Assembly: GCF_000003815.2 (NCBI RefSeq)
Contig: NC_049984.1
Location: forward strand, 10,107,087 to 10,171,086
Source: Branchiostoma floridae
Lineage: Eukaryota > Chordata > Leptocardii > Amphioxiformes > Branchiostomatidae
Length of the DNA: 64,000 nt
Direction of reading: 5' to 3'
Shown here: positions 14,587-64,000 of the stretch, piece after piece
How the letters are laid out: each line of letters opens with the position of its first letter
Numbering within the stretch: the first letter of the stretch is position 1
Translations under genes and position numbers: made by a program
The notes under the pieces: generated by a model
Told to the model about the DNA's origin: nothing
Database searches by the model: none
The model's input: the letters and a program-made list of their open reading frames with translations, nothing else

Positions 14587-15020
14587 TCACGCAATAGTGG
14601 TGACCTTCATTTTCTTGCGGCTGTCGCGTCCAGGGTGCTGTAGGCCCTGGTATGTGTTATCCTGTGTTTTCTGTAACCCCTGGTACGTGTCATCACTAGG
14701 CGGGCCACTTTTGCGCTGCGCTGGTAGGGGCGGGGCAGCAGACACATCTCCCTTGTAACCATACTCCGGTATCTCAGCGTACACATTCTCCTGTGGGGGA
14801 ACGGACCCCCCGGCGGGATGCTCATAAATGCTGTTGGGAAAATTCTGAACCTTTTCGTTTTTCTTAGCGGGACTCCCACCCTCCTTGTTCCTGCTGGCAC
14901 GGCGAGCACAGCAGACAATGGCAACGATGATGATGATAAGGAGTGCGCCTCCCCCAGCTGCCCCCGCTATGATGGCGATGGGGAGACCAGCTGATGACTG
15001 GGGCTCCGGTGGAACCATAC
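14587..15020 (-). CDS. Receptor last exon: transmembrane helix and ITAM cytoplasmic tail
   Basis: Residues about 1542-1568 form an uncharged hydrophobic helix ([20 protein letters not shown]..) with small-residue packing motifs, then RRASRNK as stop-transfer. The tail of about 105 residues has NVYAEI, a proline-rich PPLPAQR stretch that could bind SH3 domains, and [18 protein letters not shown]. The last is YxxL-x7-YxxL, the canonical ITAM spacing, with tyrosines near 1642 and 1653. Such motifs are phosphorylated by Src kinases and recruit tandem SH2 domains of Syk-family kinases. Confidence 0.88.
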
Positions 15021-18000
15021 CTTTGGAAGAGAGACATTTAAGTTACATTGGTGTTCTTGAATAGATATTTTTTGTCCGTGATAAAAGCTACATCAACATG
15101 GAGCTTAACACAGTTGAAAGTATTACAATGAAAGTTATGAGTGTTTGCAAACATTAAACAGTTAACCTGGACTCTTTAGCCAAACATTACACAGTTGTAA
15201 GAACAATATAGACAACCACCATGGTCGTCTGGAAAAATGGTTTGCTGTAAACTTACATTGGTCTTTCCTGTAGGCTCCCGGCATGTCTGTCACGGTTCCT
15301 TCTGGACATGCCTTGCAGCTGAGCTGCCCTTCCTCAGGCTGGTAGAAGCTCTGAACACAGTATGTGCACTTGTCTCCATCATGGAAAGTTCCAGCAGGAC
15401 AGGTAACTACATGTGAGGAGGAAACGATATAAACACGATAATGAGAAACATATAGATATGAGCTATCTACCTTTCAAATAACGATTACAGCGTGACCAGA
15501 ACACGAGATGTAAATCCCAGACATTCTTCTGCAGTACGGCAGGAAGCTTCAAGGAGGAAATATGCTTTAAGAACAGCACAACCACAGCGGATTATAAGGA
15601 CTTTGACCACTCTTGATTTATGTTAAAATTAGCCAGCAGTGTTGTTTCTCTTTCTGCTTTGAGTCAGAGTCATTTTTTACATCACCATAACATTTTAGCA
15701 CCATCATAAACAACAGAATTTGTCACTGCCAATTAGCAAACTTGGTACTACTGCTCTGTAACTATTGGTACAACAGAGAAAATAATTGAAATGTAATGTC
15801 ATTTACTCCATATCACTGGTCAGACAACAAATAAATCTTACCACAGACTTTGTTGACCTCAACCATGCCTTGGTCACACTCGTACGTAATTGCGGAGGCA
15901 GTAAATGAGTCACTCGTGCTGACATACGTCTCTCCACGCGCCTCTACCGTCACGCCTGCGTCCGTGAGCCTCTCGACCTGCACATAATAATTGTAAGAAC
16001 TGGTAGTTGGCGGAGGGTGCTGAGGGAGTAGAAGGGGGAATGGGGAGAAAGACAAGGAAAAAGCATTGGAAAAGGCACAGATACTAGACAGCAAAGAAGC
16101 AGCAGTGTGACAGAATGCTGAGAGAAAGGTGTCATCTGCACAGATGTGTCAAAACAGACAACTGTTACAAAGCATAAGAAGCCAAGAGAATTTGTTTCAC
16201 CCACATAAAATGTCAGAAATGTAAGGCTTAAAGGTACAGTGTTGTATCTCCTTTTTCATCTAAGATGAGCAGTTTTTAAGGAATGTGTTTCCAATGCAAG
16301 ATGCAACAGCGTAATGCAACAACGTAAAATCCTTCACGTGATTAGGCTTCTGGGAGCCTTACTCCTTGAGCCAAACAAAGAAGAACGAAGTCATGCTTCC
16401 ATTCTCACCTGTTCCACTGCCTTATCCAGCACTTCATCCCCCTCATCTACAGTGTCCACAGCATCTCCAGACTGGTCAGGCTGGACCTCCAGGGGGATCT
16501 CTACCGACACGCCATCTCCTGCTCTCTTCATCCGCCCAAACACAGAGCGTTTCTCCAGGCCACACTGAACATTGTAGTTATTCCTGTTGCAGAGTCCGAC
16601 TTCGTCTGCTTGGCCGGGGGTACACAGACCGTTGGTCTGGAAGCTGTGGTACAAGCCATCACGGAATTCATTCTGGAAGGACTCCTCACTGCTGCAGTAG
16701 CCAGAGAACCTCATGTTCACACTCCTTCTCTGCCTTCTAGGGGCTGAGGCACCTGGATAATTAAGGTTGAAAATCCAATGTAAATAAGTATGTCCCTACC
16801 AAAATTCCATGGCACATGTACATGCCCTCTGTTTAGTAAGAACAAAATAGTAACAATGTAATGCAAACTGCACTTGTCAACAGGTACTGGCATTTCCAAT
16901 GTGTTTCTTCAGTCATTTCAACGAATGAATGAATGAAGACCTTTATTGTACAATTTTGCCCAACCGAGCTAAGTAGAGGTCACAACAAGTCAGGATATAT
17001 ACATATAAAAGGTATCACAAATCTAGTCTAACACAAAAGTTTGGCTTCTTCTCGCTTCTTGGTAATGGTGAAAATGTAGGACTGTATGGGTTTCGCTATT
17101 GTCGGGTTGTCAAAACGCATGAGAAATATAAACTTGTCAGTGCTACTCATGTGTCTAAAATGAGGGAATCTACTTTCTATATAACTAAATAGAGTATTTC
17201 TATCAATAAACTTAAAGACACAAATCACTGTGTCATGAAATTATCATGCCACAAACTTGAATGAAAGCACAGTACTTACGGACACAGGAGAATGTTGTGA
17301 TGATGCTGCTCCACACGCTGCCCAGGCAGTAGCTTGTCGCAGGTCCGGAAAGTAGCTGGTAACCACGGTTACACACAACAGTGCATGGTCCGCGCTCACG
17401 ATCCCCTTCCGTACAGTCTAGTCGGCCATTTCGGGGTACCTCCAATTCTGGGCACTTGGGACCTGTAATGACCAATGACATTGCATTTAAGAATACTTCA
17501 TATCTTGGACTTTTAAATGAAGCAAAGGTACTGTGACATGGTTCTGAATAAAGAATGTAAAACAAAGTAATTCTGACAGGAATGGACCACAAGGCCATAC
17601 CAGTTTTATTTGTTGGTTCTCAGACTTAAAAAAATGCTTGACTGGAAAACCATAATGAAAACAAAGCCCAAGGACCAAGTTTATGCCATAGTGCACTCAG
17701 TTCTATGAGGTCAATACAGTCATATTCAAGTTTTCTTCCATGATTGTTGCTTTAAGATTGCTATATTTTCATTTTAAAAAATCCAAGAACCGACAAAATG
17801 AATTGGTGTAGCCCAACTATTTCATACCTTGTACTGCAACAATAAATGAACATGTGGAGGGATTTCCTGCTTCGTCCCTTGCTGAATATGTGACCGTGTG
17901 AGGGGAGTTCTCGCGGAAGAACCGTGACCCTGGCGTGCGGGAGCTGGTCAGCATGGGTTTCTTGCCACTGTTATCACTGGTGACAGGAGCATCCCATCTG

Positions 18001-21000
18001 ACAATTGCTGACTCTCCAGATGTCTCCACAATGATGTCATCAGGGCAGACCAATTGGGGAGGGGTTATATCTATGGGAAATGAAGAATTTAACGTAGATC
18101 TTTGAAGTCTCTGGTGTAACGGAATCTGATTGGCAAAATTATCACCTTTAGATAAGCATGGTGGGAAGACTAGCTGACTGCTGCCTACCCGTGATCCCAG
18201 CAGCAGTATAATCAAATACTGGATACTACTACTACTACTATTACTACTACTACTACTACTAGAAGAAATTTTCAATATGTAGGAAATGTACTATGATATG
18301 TAAAGCCACAGAATGGTAAATACCTTCTATGGTGACCTCAATCCTACATTTGACCATGTTGTCCCACTGATCTGTGGCTGTGAACTGGTGTATCATGCTG
18401 CCTGTGCCATAGTAGATCTTACTGGGGACCCTAGGGCTGATCTCCAGGGGGCGATCATACCCGTCCAAGGCGCGCAGCCGGATGTCCCATGTCACGTAGT
18501 TTGCATCCTCGGGTAGCTGCCAGCTGTGAGTGTCTGGACAGCTTTCAAAGCGTGGCATGGTGCCTGGATTGGGGGCAAAACGACAGGTGAGCATGGAATG
18601 TGGAATAATATGATACATGGACGTCTAATAAGAGTCCATTATCTTATGTTTTGCTTTATGCATTTAACTACTACATATTATTAAGAAAATGAAAAAGATT
18701 TTCTACATTGCACTGGATAGTACAACCATATGTCAACTTCCTCTTTATTGGAAAAGTAACATCAGAGAACACAACATATTTCCCTCTGTCTAATACTGAA
18801 GTGGAATATACATGTACTAGGCACACAAAATGTACCACAGGACTTGGTGAATGAACCAATGATAGATAATGTAAAGATCAAATTGCAAACAGGAACATTT
18901 CTTTCCTGCCCAAGTCTAGAACTTCCTAAACAATCCCTCTGTACCTGGGAAGACCAATGGTGTTGTTGGTCTGGCCGTCACCTCAGGTACATCAGAGGTG
19001 CATTCCCCCATGTACCACTGGAGACCCCCGCGGCACACACAGCTCGTCCTGGCAGCTGTGGACGACACACCGTCGGGGCACTGGGTACACTGTCCTGGTC
19101 GCAGCACGGACTTGTAGTACCCAAAATCACATGCTGTAAACAATACAAAGGTACTTAGATTTACCAATCTCTTTTACTTTGAGGGTTTCTAGTGCTAAAG
19201 CAGGAACAGGACATGCTCTTTGGCTCTAGCTATGCAAGTGAAGAATCCACAGAGCATTCTGTTACTGTACAGTATCTGCCAATGTACATGTATATTACAT
19301 ATCTAGGAAGATGACGACAATGCACAGTCAAAACCCTACAAGGGTATATCCATGTATCTAAAGCATACCTGTGCAACCGCTTCCTTGGAAACCGTTTCCT
19401 TGGTAACCTGCCTTGCAGACACATCTGTATATGGTGGGGTTGCTGACCTCCACAGCACAGTATGCCTGCTCATGGCAGGACTGAGCACATCTCCAGTCCT
19501 CCACACGGATCCATGGTTCAGGTGCTGGGGGTTGTATTGTAATATTAGTACATGATACATCAATGAAGGTTAGACATCCAGGTAATAAGATACGCCAAAG
19601 ACCAGTTGCTTGAGTAACTGCTCTTTGGCATATTAGTACATAATGATATCGCCAGTTAACCTATGGTATATCCGAGCGGTATCCTATATTCGTTGTTTTG
19701 AAAATAAAAAGGTATCTAGAAATCTAAAGTCGACGGACGCAGGTTTGAAATGCCAATATTTGAAGAAAAATGCAATGTTTTCAACATATTATAGTTTGAA
19801 ACCACAGTCCGTTTACTCAATATCCCTAGGTACCACGCGGAGAAAGGTAAACTAGTATTACATACTCAAGCACAACAATTGGCATAACCCCAATATGAAA
19901 TACAGTACCCATAAAAATTTATCACACATATTCTGTACATGAGTTGTACAAAAATAAAATGTTTCTGAATCCAAATGCATGGTTCAGTTGCTGAGAGTTG
20001 TAAGATAGTATTATGATTAGGATAATAGTATATGGTGATATCTACATATTCAAGCACAACAATTGGCATAACCTCAATGTGAAATATCCACAAAAATACC
20101 CACATATGAGTTGTACAAAAATGTTTCTGAATCCAAATGCATGATTTTCACCTGTTTCACATGTCTTGTCATCTGCCTTCAACTTCCTGCCCACTCTACA
20201 CTTGCAGTGGCAGCCACCAGGTACTGGGATGGCCATGTCACTGCACCCATACGCTGTACATTCATTTTCTGTGGGAGGGCACAACAAGGAAGACTTGACA
20301 CATCAAATGTCTGTTTATACATAAGTACAAGTTGTAATCTCTAGTCATATACAGTATTAAAACTAGTTACTAGTAACACCATAATGTAGACTTCCTGAGG
20401 GAGAGGACAACTGGATCATCAAAGTATGTGAGGCACTCATCAATGATCTATTAAAAGTTTTATGTTTCATTAACAACAACTGGAAAACACTGGAGCCAAA
20501 CTTCGTTTAACTTTTCTTCTGGCTGGGTTGTATGTACTATGTAAATCATTCATACAGCAATCAATTCTCACAATACACCGATAATGAATGGTTCCACTTG
20601 CTGTTGAACGTTAAAAGTATACAGTTGTTGGTGAGGCCCTTACCAGGATATGGCTGAGGGTGGTGCAGGTACAACTGTGTGGGACGAGTCAGCCCTTCCA
20701 CCAGTACCTGGGTGATACCACTCTCAAGGTTAGTCAGGTGGATCCCTTTGCTGACCCAGTCCGAGTAGAAGAGGGTGTTGTCGTGCATGGTCAGCCCAAA
20801 CACCTGGTCCACATGTGTGTCTGTCAGGTGGACCAGCTCTGTTCTGTTCACACCTATGGAACACAAGAAAATTGGTTTGTTCCCCTTCCAAAAATCATCT
20901 GTCACAAACACATACATGACAAAAGTATGACTACTTCTGTATCATAGCATTCAACTACATGTACCAGGCAACACAGGCATTTTGTACAGCATCATAGATT

Positions 21001-24000
21001 TGTTTATGGCAACACACTTCATAGTTGAAACAGTAACATCACAGCCAATGACTTGAGCTATCCATAACTCTACTTCATTCTGTATGCATTACAAACTTTC
21101 TCCATCTACATCTATTGTTACCTCTATAGTCTGTGTATTCAATCTTCTCCTGTGCAGAGTGCCCATCAGCAAAGAAGACTCTTTCCCTGACAGTGTCCAG
21201 AGCAATTCCGTTGGGCCACTGCAGTTCCTCGTCGATGAGTGCGTTCTTGTTGGAGCCGTCCATGTCTGCTCGCCAGATGGTCGCATTCTCGCCCCAATCA
21301 CTCCAGAATAGATACCTAATGTGTAGCAATGTGGTATTAATTTGCTTCATCATTAAATCACAACAGAAAAATGTGGCAAAATGATATTTCTTCATGAGTG
21401 CCTGTACGAGCAAATACATATATAGCATCACCAATAAAGATTGACTGATTTATTTATTTATTGATTCATTGATTTGATTGATAAATGACAAACTGAATAA
21501 ATCCATGAAAACATTTCAACAAGGTCACATCTATAGCAGCATTTGATATTAATGCTACATAGAAATGGTTATCTACAGACTTGGACATTATCATCTTGCT
21601 TCAACATGCAGGATTTCTATCTGTAAAGCTCACTCAGTAGACTTGTAACACTTTATGCACATTGCTTTGTTTTTGAATGATAGAATGTCAAACTTTTCAA
21701 TGAAAAAATAAATACCGTTGGTTTGGATCCAAGCCGATTGCCCTTGGTTTGTCCAGTCCACTGATGAGTTCTACATGGGATGAAACGTTTCCATCCAGAG
21801 GCATCATCTCCACAGTGCCACTGGTGTAGTCTGTCCAGTACAGATTACGTCCCACGGGATCAATGGCAAGTCCATCCACCACATCAGCCATGGAGTACAC
21901 CACCGATGCACCTGTGCCATTCAGGTGAACCCTCATGATCATACCTGGGGACAAAACAAGCACAGCAGCAATGAACAAACAGCTTTCCTTACATACATGG
22001 TAGTAAAAGTACACTGGAGCAGTGGATATACAATCATGTATACAATTTAGATACTACATTACGACAGCACAAATCAAAATACTTGATGAATATAAAAAGA
22101 ATGCAGTATAAATGGTGAGTTTCACAACCAAGATACCTTCCTACATGTATAAGTCATGTCATGCAATAGATAGTATTGCTACTAACATACAATTAGTTAA
22201 GTCTCAACTACATCACTTTATAACCAAACTAATCTTTGTTGCATTTCTGACAACTTACCACTGTCCACATTGCTGAAGTAGATGTTTTCTTCCCTTGAAT
22301 CATAGGTGACAGCCACCAGGTTAGTGAAGTACTCGTGCCTCTGTACCACAGGGTAGGCGTAGCTGTCCTGGGTGTCCATGCCAAGCATACGGATCTCAGC
22401 ATAGTCGGCAAACAGCAGGAACTTGGTTGGTCCTGTAGGAGTGACATAGGCGGCAGAAAGGGCATAAGTATGGGTGGGCTGTAATATCAACAAAAGTTAT
22501 ATACAGGAAATACAGCCAAGAGAAAGTGACAACAAATGATACAAGGATGATGCATTAGGTGCAATTATATCTCTTACTGCTAGGTGGCACAATTATACGA
22601 AAGGTCTATTCCTTACATACATGGTAGTGAAAGTAAACTTGAACAGTGGATGTATAATCACATATACTATGTACATACTGCATTATTACAGCACAAATCT
22701 GAATATCTGATGAATATAAAAAGAATGCAGTTGACTTTTATGACCAAGATCCCTGCTATATACTACAATATTGTACAAGTGAATTAGTGATTAATTGTGT
22801 TTGTGATAGACAAATAAAAGTAATTGATATAAAATTCCATCTTCACCTTCTAGAGCCTTTAAAATGGAGTATTTCTTTTTAAATGCAGATTTTTGGTGGA
22901 TTAGTTTTTCTACTTACTCCTGCAGTTCTTTCCATTGTCATCCAGCACCTTGCCTCCTATGTCAGGACACAGGCAGCGGAAAGACTGGGCTGGAGTTGGT
23001 ACGCAGATATCGCTGCAGTCGTGGCTCCGACAGGGGTTCTGTACTGGCGCCGCATCACGTTCTGCATACTTCACCCCCATTGGTGAGCCGACGTCCGTGA
23101 CTAATACTGACTTCTGATTGGTGTCCGAGTCGATGAGGTGGATAGCGCTGGTGCCCCAGTCACTGATGAAAATCTGGCTCCCCTTCACAGAGATGCCAAA
23201 TGGGGTCTGATACAAGGACAAAGATATGTTAGATATGCTTCTGAATTACTAACAAGCTCTGGTGCCCTAATTCCAGTCTTGAAGTATGGCAAGGACAGAG
23301 CCAGAGATTAGCCTAGTTTTAATTGGAATTCAAGGCATAGGCTTTTAAGATGACTTAACTAAGAATGTGGTAAGCCTTTTAGCACACTGCCTTGTTTATA
23401 CTTCCTGACTGCATTTCTGGAGTTTGGTGCAGTGATTAACACTGTGTACTAGTATAGAGTCTGAGATTTACTGGAGGAAGTCTTAGTGTATTTTGATGAT
23501 AAGAAACTCCAAAATCATGACATGCATATCACAGGAGCATTTTCTAGCATTTTATCATTAGACAATGAAGTCCCAGCAATACTGTAAATGCAGAAACTTT
23601 CGCGGTGGTTTAATGGTCGCGGTTTTCCTGTTGGCCGCTTCACCGCGAACTTAAAATCACCGCAAACATTTTTACATGCCAGTAAGAGACTACAGTGCAT
23701 GGCGCTACCGCGAACTTAAAACCACCGCGAAAAGTCATTTTTCCCGCTATCGCGAAATCAAATCCCAGCGAACTTAAATGTATTTTAAGTACCTGCAGGC
23801 CCAGACCGTCATTAGTGTTCCTGACGTTCTGGTCATCCAGGTCAATCTTGTCCAGGCTTCCCGGGGCCAGCTGGGTCCCGTTCTCGGTCACCACGTCCAG
23901 CCGGGCGTGGGAGTCCAGGATGTAGAGCTGACCGGCGCTCAGGGCCAGGCCGTTGGGGTTGTGCATCCCGTTGTGGTTCATGACCACGGCGTTGGAACCA

Positions 24001-42000: not shown

Positions 42001-45000
42001 TTGTACCCCAACAGCAAGCAGAACTAAAGAGACACAGCAGTTTTGCAGGGTGGCTTTAAGTGGATTGGAGTTAAAAGATGGAGGGAGAAACATGAGCTGA
42101 AATGTGTGTGGATATAGGGACTTAACCTTGTCTGCCTTCAAGTTCAACCATGACTTGTGCTTTTTTGACAGACAGGCCTACCTATAGGAGATAGGATTTA
42201 GACAAATACTTAAGTTTGTTCCAGTTGGTGCCCTAACACTGTTTTTTACAGGCAAGCTCTTTTTATTTAAACTAAATTCAAGTTTTTGGAAGAATGTAAA
42301 TGAATGGACTTCCTGTCCCTTTCAAATCAATTTCTCTCATTACTACGATCATCAAATTTGAGTTTAACAATATTGTCAGGCTTATTTGCTTACTGACATG
42401 TTAATTTAGACAACAACCAATGGTTATGGTCTTTAAACTGCTCAACAGATAGCTGAGTGCAGTGCCCAGCAGTCGGCGAACATGACATATTTCACAGCAT
42501 GTATAATCTTCCATGACAACCTCTGCTTGGAGAGAACCACATTGTACAATATGTATATAGAATAGACCAGCAGGAGAGGACTTAATTATAGAGCATATTG
42601 TAAATCTATCAAGATTTTTTTCTTCTTAATCATCACCTGTCAAGTGAATTTACAGTCCTTTTTGTTTAGTGACCAGAAAGGTTGGGCTTTACAGCAACAT
42701 CCTTGTAAGTTGCATGTTTTTTTCTACTGTACAGGGTTCAGGAGTTGATACACAGCCTAGGGGTCAGATAGTGAAGGACCGTTTTGCAGCGCTGCCATGT
42801 TTAGAATGAGTCAGTGTCACCTGTTGTGTCAGTTACGACCGTATCCCCCAACTGGTCCAAGTATATGAGCCAATGTGCAAAGCTGCAATGCTACTCATGC
42901 CGGAATGTCCTGCTAAAAACAGCATGGTGGGGACTATGCATCCACGAATCTCAAATATGAAGCCTTCCAAGAAAAGGCATTGCCCAATTTTCCTTGGTAA
43001 TACTCTCATAATGATCAACAGAAATAAATACAGACAAAATAAGCACTGTTGGAATGTCCGGATATAGCTGGATGTGGTATATGTCCAACTTGGGGATATT
43101 CGCTCTGGAAAGTTGATGAATAGCCCTTACATACATGTATAGATTACTTTTTATGGCATTCTTAACCCTTGACCATTTGGCTCTTTAGGTGGCCCTTTCA
43201 CCTCAGTTACACTATTTGGATTCCCTCTGGCTTTTGTGTAGTTTTACTACTGTCATTAACTGAGCTGAGACGTTAAGCTATTTATGTGTGACTTTATCAC
43301 TACATATAACACAATGCTAGCTTCTCCCCGCTGATTTCTTTTCCAGGTCATCCACTTTTGCATGACAACTTTTATCCTGCTACTAGATGACAGCCAAGGA
43401 AAACAGACCAAGAGAAGGAAGAACTCTACTTGAGAGACATTAAATTGCAATGAGATGTTTAAGACAAGCTGGAGCAAAACATCTGCATGGAAAATAATGT
43501 ATGAAAAAGTTGCTCCCTACAGTTTCAAAAAGGGCAACCATTGCTAAAAGAGCTGACATGTAGGTTTGTTGTCATAACAGACCTTGACTGCACTGTTTAT
43601 GGTTGTATGCACCTGAGAATTTGTGATGTCTCTTCAAAACAAGCCTGAAGTAAATGCTAAACACATACTGTAGACAGATACCATTTTGATACTCGCCAAG
43701 CAGAGGTTGATGAAAATCGTGACCTTTTCCTTTTACTATGCCGCCTTTTTCTGTCAACTCAATAAACTCACTCAGCTGGTGGGTATTGCTGACAGAAAAA
43801 GGCGGAATACTTAATGAGAAGGTCACGATTTTCCACATCAACCTCTGCTTGGAGAGTAGTATTTTTAGGCCAGACACAAATGACTGTTCCTCAGGTCTTT
43901 CTTCTCATCAAATGTTAAATCTTTTTACAGACAACACTACTGCCTTAGTAAGCCCATCAGGTCACAGTGTCCATGCTTCCTGTCAGTTTAAATACTTCCT
44001 CTTTCTGTGATAACAAGGGCTAACTCCCACTAGAATAGATAATTAGTGACTCACAGGTGGATGAACCTCTTCCTGGCTCAGAATGAATAATAGCTAAACC
44101 ATGACAGTACAGGGATACAGTGCCACAGTCTTACATGTATGCAAAAATGGTATCTTTGGTTAATTTTGATTCTCATCTGTTGATAACTTATTTGATATTT
44201 TTTGAGAAGACATATATAAGCAAAAGTGATTCTTGTCTAATGCTCAATAAATGAATATGAATTGAAAAAGATAATAATTTAGCAATGCATAATTAATGAC
44301 ATAACGTTTTAGTTTTGTCCTGGCAAAATTTTTTTTAGGGCTTTGAAAATATTGACCGGAAACGTGGGATTTGCCTGCCAGTACATGTATATGGATATGA
44401 CTATGAGACAAGCCCTTCAATCGATTTTCATTTTGCAGGGTAAGGAAATAGATTCCTCTGAAACTAAATCTCCTGAGAAATAAAAATATGACACATCACA
44501 ATCCCTCCTAACCCCTTACATGGTGTCTCCACACTTTCCTTTTGTGGGATTTGTTGTCTCAAAACTGACATCATGAATCATGGACATGTCACCCATCTCT
44601 ACAGGAAGGTCAGGCGCAGTGTTTCCGCCAGACCTCAGCTGGGAGGCCGTCCACCTTGGGGCGCGAAAACCGCGAAAATTAAATTTAATTGCAAAACCGC
44701 GAACATTGAATTTAATTGTAAAACCGCGAAAATTAAATTTAATTGTAAAATCGCGAAAATTAAAGTTAATGGTTAACTGTCGCAAGAAAAAACAAAACAA
44801 CTAACGTCCGATTAGTTCAGTGCCGAAGTGTTATGATCTGTGCCGCGTACCGTATGCCGCACCGAACGGGTACTACGACTTTTAAAAAGTTCTAGAAACG
44901 GTTCTTGGACTTTCAAAAAAGAAATAGCATTTGTATATATTCTCTTTTATGTTGTGGTATACTTATAAATCATCTAAAACCTTCCATAGATCGAGAAATT

Positions 45001-48000
45001 TGCGTTCAGAAATGACGAAAAACATCGTCTATCGGCGACAGTGAGCGTAATGGCGGCCGAAATCCCGCAATCTCACGTGGTGACTTCTCGCGAGATCTGG
45101 GAAAGCTAGCGACGTCACGGGAAACTAGCGCTGTGATTGGCTAGGATACACAACAACTACCGACCGCCATTTTTGATGCAACAACAACAACAACATTTAT
45201 CCCGAAAATTTCTGCCGTTTTCGGAGATTTTTCGGGCTCAAAACTCATATAAAAAGGAACCAAAGTTATACTTGATGTTTTTTACGTCCATCATCTCTTA
45301 TGTGAACACTTTATTTTTCCGCTGTGTTGCCGATAGCGAACTTGAACGAGGTCGATTTCCCGTGCCGAGCACCCGGGCCGGTGGGCACATGTATCTGATT
45401 GTGTTTTGTTTTGTTTACGATGATTGACGATGAAAACAGAGACTAAAGTTGTTAATCTAGACAAAGTTTAATAGTGTGTTGTCTTATTTCTCCCAATAAC
45501 AAAGTTTAGTTTGTAGTGTTATACTTATAGCGAGATCGACCTACCGCCAAGTTTGCGAATTATGTGACAGGGCAAATTCGTGTAACTGAGGCCTTGAAAA
45601 ACGGGTTTTGATTATCGTATGCGAAAGGCCGCCGACACACATTGTCAACAACCATAACAATAGCAAAACAAACAGTGAGCGGCTTTCTGACTGTGGACGG
45701 CGTCCCAAGCCTCTAGCTTCAATACAAAACACAAAACTGCGGTTTACATTTATCAACTTTGTACAGATTTCTCGGCAAAATGTGGGTCGCAATTTTTTTA
45801 TGAGGACGGCCTCTGGTTGCGTTCAAGCCGTCCAAAACGAAATGAGACCGTCATTGGACGGGTGGACGCCCCTCTGGCGGAAACACTGGTCAGGCGATCA
45901 GGAAATGATTAGGTAATTATTGAGTATCCCCCACTATGGAGGAAGAGGGTAGCCTCAATACAGGTAGTAGAGTAGACACTTCCTTGACAATGGTAATGCA
46001 ATTTTACTATTTTTAGGTGAACACACTTCTTCCCAAGATCTGATATGAGTATGGATCACTACATGATGTGTCATCTTTTTAATCAGAGCAAAAAATGGCA
46101 GAAAATAATTTAATAATCTTTTCTGAAGGCTTTATAAAGTTTATTCCTTCAAGCTAAATGACAGCATTCAACCCTTTCATTTGTGTAACTGATGACACCA
46201 AATACACCTCAATGATTTGCACTTTCCTCTGCACTGAAGTGGGATGATAAAAGTTTCTTTTATCATGAAATATGTCCTGACAGGTAATTGATTACAGTAT
46301 GAAAAATTTGACAACAATCTGAGACACTTCCTTCCCCTGCTAAGTGCTTTCCCCAACCTGCTCCCTTCAGGCACAAGCTAATGAAAACCAAAATAAACAG
46401 TAACAAAATGAAGGACATCCTGTGAAATCTGACCCAGGTATACTCAAACTTTTAAAGTTAGATCAAGGAACAATCCATCTACAAAGCCACTACACAATCA
46501 TGTCAAGAGAAAAACAGACATGCAGAGAGAAATGGATCATAGCGTAAACTTCAAGCTTCACAATTTTGAAATGTACTGTCATGGTTTACAGAAATACAAT
46601 GTCAAGGTCATATGACTTATCTCTAGCTGACTCTGACTTCATTAGAGTCCACGAGACCTTTAAGTGTCTAAGGCGAAAGGAAGCAAAATCATAGATCCTG
46701 AGGCGGACAAGGCTTTACAGGGAAAGTCCAGCTCAGCTCTTCTGATTCTTCCCAGCTGTTCTAATGGTCACCAAATTACAGAGATGTTGAGAGGCAGGCA
46801 ACAGTATTTGATGTCAAGCCCCTTTTATCTGCCTTGAACATCCCAGCCTTAGGTTTGGAGACTCGTTACTGAAGGACACAATGAACGTTAATCGACAACA
46901 CAAGGTGGGCAACTTTTTACCACCATTAAATACAAGAATCTTAAGCCAAGGGGCTTGCCTTGTCATCTCTACTTGTCTAGATAAGTCAGTATAGGGCAGT
47001 TACAATACAGAATAGAAGAGTTTTGTGCATTGTAGTTTTGTACCAAACTCAGACTTTTCAAGATTGAAAGGTGACATTGTACAAAGGACTAGTACTAGCT
47101 CATTCGGCAGTCAATTTGTAGTGGTATAGGGAGAAGTATGACTATAGAAAAAGATCAAGGTCAACTGCATTTGCATCATAGGTTTGATTAGTGGAATCTT
47201 ATTATCCTATACTGTTTAATTAGATATATTCTGTATTCTTTCTCTTTTTCTGTTGTAGTTTATAGTTGGGCATACAAAAGTAACTTTACTTTTTGTCATG
47301 TCAATAAAGCTTGTATAATATTCGGTCTACTGTGAAACAACATAAGTGTTGGTCTTGTGTCTCTGTTGAACTAACCTAATGAGTCACCTTTGACTTTTCA
47401 ACAGAAATTCAGGGACCTCTTGTCATGCAAGGAATCATTGCTGGCCCACAGCACCCAGCTCATATCAAAAGAAACGCTGTACAAAAATAGATCAACCTGA
47501 AATAGATTTCCGTTATTGGGGTCATGCATGTGTTTGGGTGCCAAGTTTTATGTTTGAAATAGCCAAGCAGTTCACTGTTGGAAAAAACCTTAGGGAATAG
47601 AAATGAAACTGTGTTTAGTTAGGGTAAACAAACTTGTATGGAACTTTTACAATTGTATGCAAGGCACAAGGTGGACTTTTTTTATTGCATACCAACTGCA
47701 AAGGACAAGGTGACATTGGTGTAAGTGTTCAAATGCCATATCTTAGCAATCCTAGCAAACCTTAAGCTTCCTTGACCTTATATGTTTACCAAAGACAACT
47801 TGTTTCGTGGGTCACAGAGTTTGCATTATGAATTAATCTGTGATTTACAGGTGTATAGCATGGGCATAGACACATGGGTGCCAATGAGCAGCAAATGGGG
47901 GAAAGCCCTTACATGGTACATAATTTGAGTGGCAGAGCAATTCACACCTTATGTAACCCAAAGGCAGTGGATGAGGATAGATTTCTTATAAGTTATATCA

Positions 48001-51000
48001 GGACTCCAATCTCTCTACCACCTGAGGTATCTAAGTAATTATGTCTCACTATTTCTAGCTAAGAGCAATGCAGCATACACTTCTCTAGGACATAGGATAA
48101 TCCCCTCTGTGGGTACTAACTTTGATTTGAGAATCAAGCCCCGGGGGTTAAGTTCAAAAGATATCCCTGTTGTCAAGCCCATCTGTTGTTAGGGTGTATG
48201 TAAAGGCATTCTGGCTATCAATATCAAGCTATCAAGTACCAACTCTCTTTGCCAGCTTTTAGAACCTGAATAAACACGACCGTTTTTAAAAATGGAAAAT
48301 GTAAATGAATCTTATAACCAGACCTTTTCCTTACCTTTTGTCAACACCAACTTAAGCCATCAGTTCTACTCACTCATTCACTCACTCATTCTCACTCGCT
48401 CCTCATTTACTCACTCAATCGCTCTGAACCTCTCAACATTATTTCCGCTGTAAGTGTTTTTGTATCTGTGATGGAGGAAAAATAATGCCTACTGTACTGT
48501 ACAGCATTTTGTCCTTTGTATGCAAAAAGTAAGGAGCTCTTACCTTCTGATGCGAGAAGCTCCACCCCTGTACCATCTAGTCGAGCACGGTAGAGGCCTC
48601 GTCGATCGTAGTTCACATCCGTCCAGAACAACCAGTTGTCTTCTATATCTACACCAACTGCCACAGCACGCTGGATGTCATCCTGTATGATCAGAACACG
48701 ATAAAATAAAGCACCAAGGAAGACACGCACACATTCATACATACATATACCAGTATAATCTATATGCAGATCATATATTGGGATAAGATATTGTCATAAG
48801 CTGGCCGCAAGAGTGGAACTGGCCTAGGAGTATGCAAAGGTGGGAAATGCACACTCCTAAGATGGCTAAACTCTTGCGACCAGCTTATGATTCTATCTTA
48901 TCCCACAGTAGGATCTGCTTGGAGATGAAACACATATACACACACTTTCATTGTGCAAAAGAAAGTAGTAGTGTATCATTTCTAAAATTAGACACTAGAA
49001 GATAATGTAGCTACACTTCAAAAGACACAGGTTGATGGCGATGCCTCTGTAGTAGAGAATGTACCTTTGAGGTATAATTAGAGACAGATAGATTAATTAG
49101 GTACAAGGAAGATGGCATTGGAACTACTGTTCAGCATCTGCTTCTGATTGCAGGCAAGGTCATGCCAATTCAACCAACACTTTCTGGATATATCCCAACA
49201 ATGAACCATAACATAACAGTGCAGCAGCAAAGGTGGTGATTTGGACACCAAACATGTCTTTAGTTTAGGGCTACCCTACTACGTTACATTTGTATTATGT
49301 GTCAGTGTAAATTTGAAACATTTTGGAGAAAGTTTTAAAATCTGCTATCCGATATAGTTACAGAATCTTATTTGCTAACGACTGAAAATCTTATTGAGAT
49401 TTCATTTCATGCTTAATGGAATAAACCAGTTGAAACCTTCTTTCAACCAATTAGGTTGTGAGTCTTGCAACAATGTCAGTAAGATGATTTATGGCAATTA
49501 GACACATGTCAGCATGTATTTTTTACTTGAGGAAGGAGGACTTAAACTTCAATCACCTCCCACAACATGTGTTGTATGAACTTGACTCCGTGTCTTACAC
49601 TGTACATGTATGTCTTAGTTCAAGGACTTTAGGCTTGCACTCAGGTTAGGTTACTTGAATGGTGCGTTATCTTGAAACAACATACAGAAGAATTTTCACA
49701 GAATCCCAAATGGTCAGATAGTTTCAAGATTGGTGTCCAAAAACATCCATCCACATGACAGATTGTTCATGTCAGCAGGGCTCAAATGAGGAAATACAGC
49801 ACAGACAACCATAGCCAACAATAACAATAATAATGTTTTCCTATGGCCTAGCCTGATAAAAGCCAAAGTTCAGCAACCAACTCCTTTGTTTAATCCAAAA
49901 TTCTTTTGTTTACTATGAAATTGAGCAGTACAACATATGACATGTAAATAATGTAAATGGGTATGTTTCATCTCAGAATGGTAAATTGGTTCTTGCATAA
50001 TTCAAACTTGAGCTGGTATAATGGACGGTGACAGGTGACTGCTATAATCTGAGGCCCATGGAAATACCCTTGATCAGACGTAGCTTATAGGATGAATGCA
50101 GAAACCAAACATACAGTACCACATATCTTATCAGAAAAAGAAAGCCCCATTTGAGCCTTTATAAGTATTGCTCAGTCATTCTAATTCAAGGGCATATAAT
50201 GTGTCTGTACCCTTGTCAGGTGAAAATTTATACAACGTGATTCCAAAAAGGGTGTTAATTCATTTAGATACAACAAAGTACACATCATATTTCATAACCT
50301 TTCATATTGTGACATTGTTGAGTCAATTTCATGTCAACAGGTGTGCAAAGTCACAGTGAATGACTGTCAACTATGCCGTAACATGATACCACAGGCTTTC
50401 TCAATAACATTTACCTTTAAGCCCACCTGGTGTTGTTTTCACCTGGTTGCTTCTCTATCTTGTTTTTTTTTTACTGGGATCATTTCAACCTTTTCACTGA
50501 AAATGCTACCACTTGCTTCTTGTTTATTCATACAAAACTGTTACCAGTATTCAAGTTTTGTACTTAATGGTAGTGCTAATCTCAATTTTCAGGATCTATA
50601 TGAGGACTTGTTGTGTTATTACTATGTGGGAAAAGATTATTTAGATAACAGTACGATAAACATCATCTTGTGTTGGTTACCCGGACACTCTCGATATCCA
50701 CTCATTCCAATCATCCACAGTGTTTTATGTCTTCTACATGAACCATGACATCCCTACCTATGGTAAACAGACAATAGTTTTCAGTCTATGACAGAGAACA
50801 ACTGAAAACTGGACTGAGGAAATGCCTGTCAGGTTGTCAGGTAAATAGACTGTCTGCAGGCAGACGAGCTTCAAACAAAAGAACTTCCTGATGAGGTCAT
50901 TTTGCCCACCTGTGGAGATGATACAATCTACCTGTGTCTGCAAAGAGGAAGTTATTTACACTTACGTCTGTAATACAAAGAGGAAATTATCTGCTTACCC

Positions 51001-53349
51001 CTGAGAGTAACACGTCCAGGACATATCCATTTTCCAGGCTGACTTTGCTCACAGTAGAGGCATTGGCCACCAGTAGATATGGTGCATCAGCTGTTTGGAA
51101 AGATAAACAACTTCATGTAATCTGAAACCTGTCCATGTAGGGCCATAAACTTTATATAGCTGTGTTGAAAACAAACATGAATTGGCAGCAGGCACGTCTT
51201 CTCTCTGAAAACTAAACAATACGTCTTTGGTTAGCAATATGAGTGAAGCAAAGTCATAGATGGATATTGAATTATCATGAAATAATAAGGACAAATTTGA
51301 CAAGAGTTTGAATTAAAGATTGCAATTTCATATTCTATTATCTGTCTAGTCAACATTGTTTTCAACAGTAGAGGGTTTGTTGCATGATTTCTTTCCTCTT
51401 ATTGTTGACGTTTCACTAAATTCTCTGGAGCAGACTCACATTTGCATTTGAAAAGACCACAGGCCAGTTTATAGGTGTAATCCCCCAAATCTGTGTATTC
51501 AAAGCAAGCTACCTTATTGTTTACCTTTTTGAGGCTATTCTACAAGTGACTGGCCAAGTCTTTCCTCCTATCTTTGATTTTGAAAAAAAAATCACAGGGG
51601 CAAACTGAATGTTTTGTAGATCCTTCTCCATAAGAAATACTATCTCCAGCCATGTAGAGCAGTGTTTCGTTTCTGATTCAGAAGGAGCCTTTTATAAATG
51701 TAGTTTGTACAATATTTTTCTTGCAGCCCGCCCTCAGACAATTCATCATCTTCAACTGAACTCCTGCTGCTTGCCTTATGTGGAGACTCTCTGCTATTGC
51801 AACTTCCTGTGGTGAAAAACAATGTGCAGCAAGTTTACACCAAGGTGATTTTCCCATGGCCAAAAGACTGAGGGGAGGACAAAACCCGACCCCCTGAAGT
51901 CTGGGGGTACACATGCCCAGGCTATTAGGCCCTGTCAGTGGCCACCCAAAGGTTTCCGCCCACTTGAAACAACAAACACAATTTGTTTACTTTAGCCTCT
52001 TGTAATAAGATTTAAAGCTGTCATCCAAGTGGTCTTCTCTTTGACAGAAAGGTGCATGTCTTATCTGTGTGATGATATGAAATGACTTGGTCCCATTTCA
52101 ACACACAATTCCTGATCATTTAGATTCTAACAAATAGTGTTGTGTCCCTATTTGATACCAATTCATTTTTTTCATGTTATCTCAGATGGAGATCTTTTGC
52201 ATTTACCATAACTAATTGGAGTAATATGACCCAGTTAGAGAACATGACCACTCATGGGAAAGTACCACAGCCATAACATGCCTACTGCAGACAGCTTTCT
52301 ACCATTACACTCCTTTCACTGTTACCAAAACGTAAGACTGCATTCACCACAAAAGTGGCATTATAAAAGGACATTTAGGACACAAGTGAAATGCGTGTTT
52401 TACAAATGATATTATTGTTGTATCCAGTTCGCAGTAAGCTAATCTAAGGATAGTTGTTTCAACTGACAGGAAATAAATCCTACAAATCTGCCATGAAGGC
52501 CTCCCGGTCAGCCTGCGAAAACATGCCCACCACTTTATCTGATACAGTTTGAAGCTTTGCTATCGTTAAACGTCATTATTGTCGGGAAGCGACGTTGGTG
52601 GGCAATTTTACGGCTACAGTATTTGTAAAACGTTATTCCGGGTAAAAGAAATAACGGATTTTCGGCTAAAACAAGTTGAGTCATGTTCTGCTAAAATGGT
52701 CGTCTCCGCTGTCGGAGGTCTGCCGTCCCATGGTGTAACAAGTACGCACAAATCGCCTTCTGTGGCCAGATACACGTTAGCTTATTTTCTAGAAAAGGCT
52801 GTTTGTGGGGAGAGGACAAAATACATTCGTGCTGTCCATGCGTTGATTTCAATATTGTTGCATCATATTTTTAGTGGCGCCAGATATCAAACATAGCTGG
52901 TGCGAGGGGAGGACGGGAGGACGCCGTTAGGCACGCCTCTCACATTCCCAAACGGGACGGTCGGGACAGTCGCCAAACCAGGGTCATGTACCGTATACAT
53001 CTACTCACAAGATATCAAGAAAAATCATCACTAGATACAACAAGTCCTGTACAGCCTACGCAAGTCATTTTCAACAGAAGCGTGGAGAAAAACTAATTGT
53101 CTCCTCAGTTTGTTTACTGAAACAACCGCTCCGGACGACGAAGTTGACCATGAGGAAATAGTATCGGTAAACACGCAGTGCCACTGCGAAACAACAGAAC
53201 CCATCTACATAACTCATTTTTATGATACACTTGAAGAGGACGAACTTACAACTTCCTGCGGCCACAGTCGAGCATCCAACCGCCAGGAGAAGAGCGGTGA
53301 CAGCGATGAAACGTCCGGGTCTCGCTCCGAGCCCCCTCCCTGCCGCCAT
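14587..53349 (-). CDS. LRP5/6-like and SVEP1/polydom-like chimeric receptor with ITAM tail (27 coding exons)
   Basis: Exons: 53349-53250, 51090-50999, 48682-48544, 38252-38084, 37119-36991, 27657-27506, 27076-26945, 26200-26072, 25671-25529, 24943-24841, 24517-24337, 24057-23793, 23206-22918, 22432-22259, 21944-21716, 21315-21122, 20853-20644, 20268-20152, 19524-19369, 19133-18945, 18563-18324, 18070-17828, 17462-17280, 16752-16409, 15977-15842, 15406-15257, 15020-14587. All have AG/GT borders; lengths sum to 5,022 nt, giving 1,673 residues with every phase matching. Order: signal peptide, three six-bladed YWTD propellers each with an EGF, polydom-type EGF, GCC2/GCC3, two HYR, sushi, polydom-specific region, GCC2/GCC3, one TM, tail with ITAM. 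There are no LDLR-A repeats and no PPPSP motifs, so it is not a standard LRP5/6. A type I surface receptor is inferred; the ligand is unknown. A split into two genes is possible but exon 19 has no signal peptide or start. The start ATG at 53349 has context AAGATGG; another in-frame ATG is at 53361. Confidence 0.85.
15257..15406 (-). CDS. Receptor GCC2/GCC3 domain 2
   Basis: [36 protein letters not shown] and AYRKDQC; the final Cys codon is split across the next intron (T|GT). A very close match in layout to the SVEP1 cysteine-rich module. Confidence 0.9.
15842..16752 (-). CDS. Receptor polydom-specific region with dibasic sites (exons 24 and 25)
   Basis: Exon 24 (16752-16409) and exon 25 (15977-15842) encode about 160 residues with no named domain. 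They occupy the same place as the region between the sushi and GCC2/GCC3 domains of SVEP1. Two furin-like sites are visible, PRRQRRS and RMKRA. Exon 25 ends [14 protein letters not shown], which leads into the next cysteine-rich exon. The pattern suggests proteolytic processing of the ectodomain. Confidence 0.75.
16921..17216 (-). mobile_element. LINE 3' end fragment
   Basis: Minus strand reads a C-terminal LINE ORF2-like remnant ([14 protein letters not shown], then an IQSYIF segment) followed by a short 3' UTR, ACAATAAAGGTC and a terminal TTCATTCATTCATTC repeat. In an intron of the receptor gene between exons 23 and 24. Confidence 0.65.
17280..17462 (-). CDS. Receptor sushi (CCP) domain
   Basis: [14 protein letters not shown]...[14 protein letters not shown]...YCLG-VW...FSC: six cysteines and the conserved Trp, as in the SVEP1 sushi that follows its HYR pair. 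Confidence 0.88.
17828..18070 (-). CDS. Receptor HYR domain 2
   Basis: [49 protein letters not shown] and IVAVQG give a textbook HYR domain, closer to consensus than HYR 1. Confidence 0.92.
18224..18261. repeat. (TAC)n microsatellite
   Basis: About 12 copies of TAC/ACT with one interruption, in the intron between the two HYR exons. Confidence 0.9.
18324..18563 (-). CDS. Receptor HYR domain 1
   Basis: An exon of about 80 residues with [46 protein letters not shown] and the closing CRIEVTIEG. This is the hyalin-repeat immunoglobulin-like fold. Confidence 0.8.
18945..19133 (-). CDS. Receptor GCC2/GCC3-type cysteine-rich domain 1
   Basis: [19 protein letters not shown]...SCVCRGG is the ephrin-receptor-like GCC2/GCC3 pattern, followed by a Thr/Pro linker. 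In SVEP1 the same module follows the EGF. Confidence 0.8.
19369..19524 (-). CDS. Receptor polydom-type EGF-like domain
   Basis: [13 protein letters not shown]...[14 protein letters not shown]...GCT has six cysteines. It resembles the EGF-like module that follows the vWA domain of SVEP1, and the one at 58822-58968 in the neighbouring plus-strand gene. Confidence 0.8.
20152..20268 (-). CDS. Receptor EGF-like domain 3
   Basis: Exon with six cysteines ([18 protein letters not shown]), phase 1-1. It closes the LRP-like half; the next intron, 627 bp, is the junction to the polydom-like half. Confidence 0.85.
20644..22432 (-). CDS. Receptor propeller 3 (exons 14-17, residues about 675-943)
   Basis: Blades read [19 protein letters not shown]...[17 protein letters not shown]...MPLDGN and [30 protein letters not shown] with [21 protein letters not shown]. 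This is the best-preserved propeller and the closest to LRP5/6. Confidence 0.9.
22918..25671 (-). CDS. Receptor propeller 2 and EGF-like domain 2 (exons 9-13, residues about 348-674)
   Basis: Blades read [19 protein letters not shown]...[14 protein letters not shown]...VEMVGLDG and [18 protein letters not shown]...VELDGSN and [22 protein letters not shown]. The EGF at the end of exon 13 has six cysteines ([20 protein letters not shown]). The [22 protein letters not shown] junction is a classic LRP blade boundary. Confidence 0.88.
23580..23790. mobile_element. MITE, ACTGTAAATGCAGAAAC family, copy 1
   Basis: Starts TACTGTAAATGCAGAAAC with TTCGCGGTGG repeats. Ends GCGAACTTAAATGTATTTTA, one base from exon 12's donor. 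Non-coding, internally palindromic, about 210 bp. Confidence 0.75.
25745..26015 (-). mobile_element. tRNA-derived SINE
   Basis: Minus strand: GGCCACGTGGGTAGAGTG (A-box-like), TAGCTTGAGTTTGATCCCC (B-box-like), then a tail with CATGCTCCTCTCTCTGC. Lies between receptor exons 8 and 9. Right and left borders are approximate. Confidence 0.7.
26072..26200 (-). CDS. Receptor EGF-like domain 1
   Basis: One exon with six cysteines ([25 protein letters not shown]). The NGxCSHLC pattern is the form that follows propellers in the LRP family. Confidence 0.9.
26516..26890 (-). mobile_element. LINE 3' end fragment
   Basis: Minus strand encodes a LINE ORF2 C-terminal remnant ([16 protein letters not shown], then [14 protein letters not shown] and a stop) and ends with GCGCAATAAAGTTC plus TTC repeats. 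It ends about 55 bp from receptor exon 7 (26945). Confidence 0.7.
26945..51090 (-). CDS. Receptor propeller 1 (exons 2-7, residues about 34-304)
   Basis: Exon 2 [16 protein letters not shown], exon 3 WLFWTD...YRARLDGTG, exon 4 NNIYLTD...[10 protein letters not shown] and IPRGIAVDP, exon 5 YLYWGDQ...[10 protein letters not shown] and WPNEMVIDY, exon 6 [13 protein letters not shown], exon 7 the closing blade. About 270 residues fits six blades. The YWTD motif is variably degraded (FWTD, YLTD, YWGD, YWVD). Three very large introns separate exons 2, 3, 4 and exons 5, 6; the last contains DHCR7. Confidence 0.85.
27373..27471. mobile_element. Intact 99-bp inverted-repeat element (empty-site paralogue of the DIRS target)
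   Basis: TAGCCTGATT...CAGACTA with imperfect inverted ends, flanked by perfect 9-bp direct repeats AGTTTCAAC (27364-27372 and 27472-27480). The interrupted copy is at 4076-11691. Confidence 0.8.
29000..29194. mobile_element. MITE, ACTGTAAATGCAGAAAC family, copy 2
   Basis: Begins TACTGTAAATGCATTTAAG and ends CTGCATTTACAGTA, a near-perfect terminal inversion, with CGCGG-rich subterminal repeats and the conserved core CTCTTAATGCCATGG. In the large intron between exons 5 and 6. Confidence 0.85.
29514..29693. mobile_element. MITE, same family, copy 3 (diverged)
   Basis: Begins TACTGTAAAAGCAGAAATG and ends GCATTTACCGTA. Shares the AGTAAGAGACTACAGTACATG core, with more substitutions than the other copies. 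Confidence 0.75.
32704..35867 (+). CDS. DHCR7: 7-dehydrocholesterol reductase
   Basis: Four coding exons, 32704-32843, 33786-34008, 34319-34960 and 35403-35867, give 489 residues (human about 475). The enzyme reduces the C7-C8 double bond of 7-dehydrocholesterol with NADPH in the ER membrane, the last step of the Kandutsch-Russell cholesterol route. Diagnostic segments are [113 protein letters not shown] and the C-terminal YRLIPGIF. These separate it from the paralogues LBR and TM7SF2. The protein is polytopic. An acceptor (TCTTCAACAG, ending 32675) just upstream implies a 5' non-coding exon. The whole gene lies on the opposite strand inside one receptor intron. All phases (2, 0, 0) and splice sites fit, with no disruption. 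Confidence 0.97.
35868..36990 (+). other. Probable DHCR7 3' UTR and intron remainder
   Basis: No canonical AATAAA is evident before the opposite-strand receptor exon at 36991. AATATA-type variants occur. No other feature seen. Confidence 0.35.
37875..38035 (+). mobile_element. tRNA-derived SINE
   Basis: B-box-like GGTTTGAATCCCGCTATGTC followed by CACGTCACTCAGGTGAAAAT and GAGTACCT. The A-box is degenerate. It ends about 50 bp from receptor exon 4. Confidence 0.55.
38253..40800. other. Receptor intron between exons 3 and 4, proximal part
   Basis: Contains one MITE (39590-39805) listed separately. No exon or RNA gene recognised in the rest. Confidence 0.4.
39590..39805. mobile_element. MITE, ACTGTAAATGCAGAAAC family, copy 4
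   Basis: Begins ACTGTAAATGCATTTAAG, ends TCTGCATTTACAGTA, with four CGCGGT blocks and the CTCTTACTGCCATGG core. 216 bp, non-coding. Confidence 0.85.
40801..40885 (-). CDS. Candidate alternative first exon with signal peptide
   Basis: ATG at 40885 (context AAAGATGA) opens [20 protein letters not shown], a strong signal-peptide profile, then SLPEHSCE and a phase-1 donor GTAAGC (40800-40795). It sits in the large intron upstream of receptor exon 4 (38252), which accepts phase 1. It could therefore start a shorter receptor isoform without the first two propeller exons, or belong to an unrelated small gene. Exon status is inference only. Confidence 0.35.
41421..41457. other. Perfect 16-bp inverted repeat with 5-nt loop
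   Basis: TTTCTATGGTCTTCCA (41421-41436), loop CTGTT, then its exact complement to 41457. Too short for a typical miRNA precursor; may be the remains of a mobile element. Confidence 0.7.
43690..43858. mobile_element. MITE, CTCCAAGCAGAGG family
   Basis: Left TACTCGCCAAGCAGAGGTTG, right CAACCTCTGCTTGGAGAGTA. The inversion runs about 60 bp inward, including AAAATCGTGACCTT and GCCGCCTTTTTCTG, so nearly the whole element is a hairpin. Confidence 0.85.
44666..44772. repeat. 27-bp tandem repeat, four units, inside the hAT-like element
   Basis: Units of AAAACCGCGAAAATTAAA plus TTTAATTGY with a few substitutions. Confidence 0.9.
45048..45180. promoter_or_regulatory. Promoter-like motif cluster inside the hAT-like element
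   Basis: Within about 130 bp: ATGGCGGCC and GCCATTTT (YY1-like, facing each other), TCACGTGG (E-box), TCTCGCGAGA (45086-45095, exact palindromic core-promoter element), GACGTCAC (CRE-like) and ATTGG (inverted CCAAT, 45136-45140). The density is unlike the surrounding intron. Activity is inferred. Confidence 0.55.
45897..48543. other. Receptor intron, distal part
   Basis: Only a short CTCA/ACTC-rich simple stretch (about 48368-48420) next to exon 3 is notable. No other feature seen. Confidence 0.4.
48779..48905. mobile_element. MITE with TGGGATAAGATA termini
   Basis: TGGGATAAGATA...CATAAGCTGG and CCAGCTTATG...TATCTTATCCCA are inverted; the inner CGCAAGAGT/ACTCTTGCG also pairs. About 127 bp in the intron between exons 2 and 3. 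Confidence 0.75.
48906..50998. other. Receptor intron between exons 2 and 3
   Basis: No supported exon. An open frame on the plus strand at 50341-50748 has no recognisable domain. Confidence 0.4.
51091..53249. other. Receptor intron 1
   Basis: No supported exon or repeat. The 52500-52960 part is relatively rich in CpG and could include regulatory sequence of the 5' region. Confidence 0.35.
53250..53349 (-). CDS. Receptor exon 1: signal peptide
   Basis: The ATG sits in CAAGATGGCGGC, which is both a good start context and a YY1-like motif often found at housekeeping-type starts. A basic N-terminus is followed by [19 protein letters not shown], a clear signal peptide. Donor GTAAGT at 53249-53244; ends in phase 1. 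Confidence 0.8.
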
Positions 53350-61827: not shown

Positions 61828-61864
<37 letters not shown>

Positions 61865-63985: not shown

Positions 63986-64000
63986 TTCCTACACAGCGAC

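Follow-up and report, generated by a model that had tools for sequence, protein, structure and literature searches.

A Branchiostoma floridae locus best read as one gene that joins three LRP-type propellers to a polydom-type core, a transmembrane helix and an ITAM match

A locus of the lancelet Branchiostoma floridae, in which exons of an LRP-type ectodomain are followed on the same strand by exons of polydom type, raises the question of whether one fused gene or two neighbouring genes are present, and of what kind of protein a fused gene would encode. The window, that is, the whole stretch of DNA analysed, comprises 64,000 nucleotides (C6:10107087-10171086; positions below are those of the window unless a contig is given), and the genome searched comprises 513 Mb in 431 contigs. 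The exons were assembled by hand from the raw sequence of the minus strand, with splice sites picked by us. This manual rebuild gave 27 exons running from 53361 to 14587 (minus strand), every intron being GT...AG; the phases agree at all 26 junctions and the exons form a single frame of 1677 residues with one stop at its end, which bears out the absence of phase conflict described in an earlier note on this DNA. The same note had placed the start of the gene at 53349, which is the second in-frame ATG, the first being at 53361, and had described an ectodomain only; exon 27 further encodes a membrane-spanning helix and a cytoplasmic tail that contains an ITAM match. The domain order given there, three propeller-EGF units, EGF, GCC2/GCC3, a pair of HYR, sushi, polydom-type region and GCC2/GCC3, was recovered, with the qualification that only the second HYR is recognized by Pfam, the first being degenerate and without a Pfam match. 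A Pfam scan of the whole 1677-residue chain returned 14 families at E up to 0.1, among them Ldl_recept_b (E 2.9e-42, six stretches), HYR (E 2.6e-14, one stretch) and Ephrin_rec_like, which is GCC2/GCC3 (E 4.9e-13, two stretches). The LRP-type half and the seam are laid out as follows:

53250..53361, minus strand: exon 1, start codon and signal peptide (rebuild; hydropathy peak from residues 16-20 on)
26945..51090, minus strand: exons 2-7, first YWTD propeller (rebuild, Pfam, match to solved structures), made up of exon 2 (51090-50999), exon 3 (48682-48544), exon 4 (38252-38084), exon 5 (37119-36991), exon 6 (27657-27506) and exon 7 (27076-26945)
26072..26200, minus strand: exon 8, EGF behind propeller 1 (FXa_inhibition match at 312-350, under its curated cut-off)
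22918..25671, minus strand: exons 9-13, second propeller and its EGF (rebuild, Pfam, solved-structure matches), singly 25671-25529, 24943-24841, 24517-24337, 24057-23793 and 23206-22918
20644..22432, minus strand: exons 14-17, third propeller (rebuild, Pfam, solved-structure matches), singly 22432-22259, 21944-21716, 21315-21122 and 20853-20644
20152..20268, minus strand: exon 18, EGF behind propeller 3, the final LRP-type exon (rebuild)
19525..20151, minus strand: seam intron, 627 bp, phase 1 (rebuild)

The solved structures that best match the propellers include LRP2, LRP4 and LRP6. Propeller 1 scored 154.6-164.8 bits against each of the four LRP4 propellers, 148.9 bits against a single-propeller chain of LRP6, and 320.2 bits for two against an LRP6 propeller pair. 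Thus, the propellers had rightly been called LRP5/6-like in so far as they belong to the LRP4/5/6 class, but they are not specifically LRP5/6, since LRP4 scores as high. The gene has three propeller-EGF units (exons 2-18), not four as in LRP5/6; the LRP4 structure match also shows four propeller stretches. As the earlier note had stated, LDLR-A repeats and PPPSP motifs are missing: LDLR-A is absent among the 14 Pfam families found over the whole chain at E up to 0.1, and a motif scan of the 1677-residue protein found no PPPSP or PPPSPxS and no NPxY. With three propellers and neither LDLR-A nor PPPSP, it is reasonable to predict that the product is not a Wnt co-receptor. A division of the propeller half, with exons 1-5 as a separate gene, was considered because a sterol reductase gene sits between exons 5 and 6, and was rejected: it would cut propeller 1 mid-fold, and the counterpart exons in the paralogue at C6:10.26M are only about 0.8 kb apart. 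The reductase gene itself, of the ERG4/ERG24 family (Pfam 2.5e-42 and 4.2e-48) and by eye 7-dehydrocholesterol reductase-like, lies within intron 5 on the opposite strand at 34262-35864 (plus strand), probably from 33763.

On the other side of the seam, the following features were read:

19369..19524, minus strand: exon 19, EGF, first polydom-type exon (rebuild; alignment to the neighbouring gene)
18945..19133, minus strand: exon 20, GCC2/GCC3 (Ephrin_rec_like; rebuild, Pfam)
18324..18563, minus strand: exon 21, degenerate HYR (alignment to the gene's own second HYR)
17828..18070, minus strand: exon 22, HYR (rebuild, Pfam)
17280..17462, minus strand: exon 23, sushi/CCP (rebuild, single-exon Pfam)
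16409..16752, minus strand: exon 24, first part of the polydom-type region (rebuild, alignment, profile comparison)
16724..16735, minus strand: furin-type site RQRR, ahead of the polydom-type region (motif scan, coordinates from the exon model)
16523..16534, minus strand: furin-type site RMKR, between the halves of the polydom-type region (motif scan, coordinates from the exon model)
15842..15977, minus strand: exon 25, second part of the polydom-type region (an alternative in-frame acceptor 42 bp upstream is possible)
15257..15406, minus strand: exon 26, GCC2/GCC3 (rebuild, Pfam)
14587..15020, minus strand: exon 27, stalk, transmembrane helix, cytoplasmic tail and stop (rebuild, hydropathy)
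14911..14982, minus strand: transmembrane helix, approximate (19-residue hydropathy up to 2.70)
14641..14685, minus strand: ITAM match (motif scan)

The core order of Polydom/SVEP1, HYR-HYR-sushi-polydom region-GCC2/GCC3, is present here with its first HYR degenerate. Exon 21 alone matched none of the Pfam families; it aligned with the gene's own second HYR (z 7.8) and with the first HYR of a polydom-type gene at C6:10.25M (z 6.7), while against the first HYR of the adjacent polydom-type gene it gave z 1.0, with 53 of 300 shuffles as good. The sushi module is not in the whole-chain Pfam list, and exon 23 alone scores above the family cut-off (22.4 vs 20.7 bits). VWA and pentraxin are both absent among the 14 Pfam families of the chain; the neighbouring gene has a VWA, and the chain under study ends in a transmembrane helix and tail, with no C-terminal sushi array.

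For the polydom-type region, which we take to be present in human SVEP1 as well, eight sequences were aligned (the window gene, two from C12, one each from the plus-strand locus at C6:10.26M, hereafter C6+, from C2 and from C13, and two polydom-type genes). The alignment has three invariant columns, and an RX[KR]R site between the two halves of the region, counted by eye, occurs in all eight; two such sites were found in the fusion protein by motif scan. In a profile comparison from which C2 was left out, five fusions matched the two polydom-type genes with a probability of 88.6 and E 2.7e-6 over 147 columns, and a direct comparison of the window gene's region with that of the adjacent polydom gene gave z 0.6, with 77/300 shuffles as good. 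The region of the fusion gene thus matches polydom-type genes by profile only. A SEA-like fold with a furin cut was tried as a candidate for this region and found no support in fold searches, which returned from Pfam four families, each in one of the eight members (best E 0.077), and from the PDB a designed repeat protein as the best match (E 0.016).

What stands next to the fusion gene bears on its origin. The neighbour was read exon by exon:

57562..64000, plus strand: start of a polydom/SVEP1-type gene, which runs past the window
57562-58300, plus strand: VWA exon
58822-58968, plus strand: EGF
59180-59293, plus strand: GCC2
~61903-62119 and ~62651-62839, plus strand: two sushi modules

Past the window, this gene continues with sushi, HYR, HYR, sushi, the polydom-type region, three GCC2/GCC3 and EGF repeats, an order that fits the one given for human polydom/SVEP1 (PMC12549020, PMC10281526). 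The two genes are arranged head to head, their start codons 4.2 kb apart. In the neighbour, the VWA exon closes in phase 1, and both the EGF and the GCC2 exon are of type 1-1. Because exons 19-20 match the EGF-GCC2 pair behind the neighbour's VWA (z 11.9, 0/300 shuffles as good), the seam sits where a VWA should end; with phase-1 ends at the same place, the simplest account would be that an LRP ectodomain replaced the VWA by way of a phase-1 intron. In the predicted protein, the signal peptide and the three propeller-EGF units stand at the VWA position of a polydom gene, before EGF-GCC2/GCC3, and the transmembrane helix with its 107-residue tail stands where polydom continues with GCC2/GCC3 and EGF repeats. 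A second polydom-type gene (C6:10249281-10242028, minus strand), whose part read lies past the VWA, faces the C6+ fusion, and this second fusion/polydom-type pair lies 80-117 kb from the window pair; the facing pairs, at C6:10121676-10179685 and C6:10242028-10277071, have mirror order on one chromosome. On C13, plus-strand HYR and GCC2/GCC3 exons at 18.29-18.32 Mb suggest a third pair. The head-to-head polydom gene may be co-regulated with the fusion, and its product may be a partner.

Similar joined genes were found elsewhere in the genome. Among the 48 of 303 candidates that were scored, the propeller half matched best, outside its own locus, at C6:10268659 (52%) and C2:12865458 (47%), followed by C4:6817925 (33%). 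The C6+ and C2 loci parallel the window gene over many exons at 31-64% identity (one chance-level row excluded) and have, on the same strand, propellers, then a polydom-type region, GCC2/GCC3 and a transmembrane exon, the last assigned by eye. Their exons could be joined in consistent phase at 6/6 (C6+) and 7/7 (C2) junctions tried, which is weak evidence alone, as the search takes the best consistent join. The middle exons of C2 aligned with z 11.5 (HYR) and z 3.8 (sushi), both under the Pfam cut-offs; in C6+ the sushi exon gave z 3.8 and no Pfam sushi match, the HYR-like exons are assigned by position only, and no third EGF was seen. The C6+ paralogue also carries, directly behind its last propeller blade and in one open frame, a long Thr-rich TTDVPTTT repeat (L022:466-1482). 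In the stretch read on C13 (C13:18272123-18258122), propellers precede sushi and HYR repeats, which are followed by a polydom-type region (z 8.1) and GCC2/GCC3. In the C12 cluster (19.43-19.68 Mb), propellers are followed by EGF and sushi (by eye), a polydom-type region (z 21.3 for one copy) and a transmembrane exon; HYR occurs at two places in the cluster, and no GCC2/GCC3 was found in a tblastn of 200 kb or among the matches listed in the genome search. Altogether, four further places (C6+, C2, C13 and C12) have polydom-type modules behind propellers on one strand, and many other propeller clusters are present in the genome. On C12, propeller matches extend as a large cluster over C12:19388095-19681258 (minus strand), accompanied by polydom-type regions and by tails with Tyr motifs (NPVY, YETI).

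By hydropathy, the fusion gene is predicted to encode a membrane protein with one transmembrane helix near its C-terminus. The pattern YxxL/I-x6-8-YxxL/I has a single match in the 1677 residues, and this match lies in the 107-residue tail; it arose in 406 of 200,000 shuffles of the tail, and in 125 of 200,000 when a leading acidic residue was required. The match holds two YQGL tyrosine motifs, including the short repeat TYQGLQ, and upstream of it the tail has the further Tyr motifs YEHP and YAEI. An ITAM is absent from the tail frames of C6+ and C2, read by eye to the stop; two C12 tails, in the part read, show NPVY and YETI-type motifs. Among the tails read, the match is thus seen in the window copy alone. 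A search of the genome for the SH2 family gave 60 matches, some near one another. A kinase search, in which 134 of 1264 candidates were scored, gave mostly open frames of several hundred residues, among which a Syk-type kinase was not pinned down. Amphioxus Lck is described as functional and able to replace human Lck in part (PMC8211107), and an amphioxus slp76/GADS/Itk complex has been described (PMC8211107; PMC5431462); according to the latter paper, Zap70 homologues had not been reported in amphioxus as of 2017 (PMC5431462).

We think it probable, with some reserve, that the locus constitutes a single gene, encoding a type I membrane receptor descended from polydom that would work by ligand capture, furin-type cleavage and ITAM signalling. 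Its VWA would have been swapped for an LRP ectodomain via a phase-1 intron, and the C-terminus of a polydom relative would have become a membrane anchor. The propellers would capture a protein ligand, and a furin-type protease would cut within the polydom-type region, after which the large N-terminal piece would either stay bound to a membrane stub or be released from it. Clustering might then allow a Src-family kinase to phosphorylate the two YQGL tyrosines, and phospho-YQGL could dock a Syk-type kinase, leading to activating, possibly phagocytic, signalling. Polydom is reported to undergo cleavage during secretion, yielding parts of 115 kD and 270 kD (PMC10281526), and an RX[KR]R site in the polydom-type region would fit as the site of that cut. 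It is a more speculative and rather doubtful extension that the gene belongs to a receptor family, perhaps restricted to cephalochordates, that turned polydom into a furin-processed membrane sensor with LRP propellers, represented here by a self-contained ITAM-bearing immune or phagocytic receptor that was duplicated as a mirror pair together with its secreted, head-to-head polydom partner.

The rebuild bore out the seam as the phase-1 intron of 627 bp described before. Phase agreement across it is weak evidence, because the exons flanking the seam are 1-1 and the splice sites were hand-picked, and chimeric gene models are documented for lancelets, where they lie behind supposedly new domain combinations (PMC4967905). 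Two neighbouring genes, one for an LRP-like ectodomain and one polydom-like, could have been misread as one through such a gene-prediction error, and some ATG-led frames within the seam intron are indeed hydrophobic (11-residue hydropathy up to 2.49). However, the LRP half has neither a transmembrane helix nor a stop of its own, and read-through past exon 18 adds 36 residues, whose hydropathy peaks at 1.49. A separate start with a signal peptide before 19524, which the earlier note had named as the observation that would count against a single gene, was looked for in the seam-intron sequence and none usable was found: the frame that is open ahead of exon 19 lacks an ATG, and a phase-1 GT[AG]AG donor, the donor type tested, is missing from every ATG-led intron frame of at least 15 codons. 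Because no usable start was found and the propeller-then-polydom order recurs on the same strand at four other places, an artefact of merged genes is unlikely, and we give this misreading very little probability; recurrence in paralogues is a stronger argument for one gene than phase agreement. Taken with the continuous frame, these observations support the claim of one fused gene, which is the best reading of the locus as judged from its sequence. Within the seam intron, at 19869-20151, a stretch containing 'atgcatttggattcagaaacat' occurs twice in similar form.

If the gene is one, its product could still differ from the receptor proposed above. That it is a divergent LRP5/6 orthologue, a Wnt co-receptor with acquired modules, is the least credible reading: propeller 1 does match LRP6 chains at about 1e-94, but LRP4 propellers score as high, the propellers are three, LDLR-A and PPPSP are lacking, many other propeller clusters exist in the genome, and separate LRP4 and LRP6 genes are attributed to B. 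belcheri (PMC10339998). It is possible, if rather unlikely, that the fused gene encodes a matrix adhesion or endocytic receptor in which YQGL was duplicated by chance, the ITAM match having no signalling role. Polydom is stated to bind integrin alpha9beta1 and Tie1 (PMC10281526) and LDLR-family receptors are regarded as endocytic (PMC10339998); the other tail frames read have no ITAM, and the motif contains the short repeat TYQGLQ. On the other hand, the spacing, the leading acidic residues and the extra Tyr motifs (YEHP, YAEI) suit a signalling tail, the low count of matching tail shuffles speaks against chance, and the window protein has no NPxY. The single-gene ITAM receptor therefore remains the account that we prefer.

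Compared with known systems, the fusion gene shares with Polydom/SVEP1 the order EGF, GCC2/GCC3, HYR, HYR, sushi, polydom-type region with RX[KR]R and GCC2/GCC3, which is also the order of the adjacent gene, and the phase-1 intron ahead of the EGF. It differs in the lack of the VWA, of the sushi repeats before the HYR pair, of the further GCC2/GCC3 and of the EGF repeats, and, relative to human SVEP1, of the pentraxin and the long sushi tail; instead, it has three propellers, a transmembrane helix and an ITAM match. With LRP5/6 and LRP4, which together with LRP2 are among the best-matching structures, it shares the succession of YWTD propeller and EGF, but it has three such units, and no LDLR-A, PPPSP or NPxY, and its propellers are separated from the membrane by a polydom core. 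In ITAM receptors, typified by CD3 zeta and its kin, the ITAM sits on a small adaptor; the arrangement D-x-YxxL-x7-YxxL in a cytoplasmic tail is the same here, whereas the fusion would carry the match in cis on a large LRP/polydom receptor. Polydom-like proteins of Nematostella likewise have the core without VWA and pentraxin and with domains added at either end, these being thrombospondin type 1 and Ig-like domains, with no mention of LRP propellers or an ITAM tail in the part of the paper drawn on here (PMC12549020). A survey of the LDLR family in B. belcheri lists six members, and its text contains neither 'HYR' nor 'sushi' (PMC10339998). The joining of polydom cores to other domains is therefore known already from Nematostella (PMC12549020), and what appears new is the combination of propellers, polydom core, transmembrane helix and ITAM match; in keeping with the earlier note, which knew of no described protein with this order, it was not found in the open-licence PMC papers searched, as far as their consulted text goes.

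Lancelets have been credited with domain-pair gains 10-100 times as fast as those of other animals, biased toward 1-1 phase exons (PMC4284660), and this has been challenged as a possible gene-prediction error (PMC4967905). This debate lends the fusion gene weight beyond a single gene: the case is open to checking one exon at a time, with related copies elsewhere in the genome and a polydom-type gene adjoining, and given the similar joined genes it serves well as an example of exon shuffling giving rise to a new receptor. With it come a membrane-anchored polydom and an LRP-type ectodomain combined with an ITAM match, and ITAM signalling in non-vertebrate chordates becomes open to concrete experiment. 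Elsewhere in the window, at 9360-10190 (minus strand), an open frame with no Pfam match at 0.01 carries by eye a CCHC zinc knuckle; it is gag-like and probably belongs to a retroelement.
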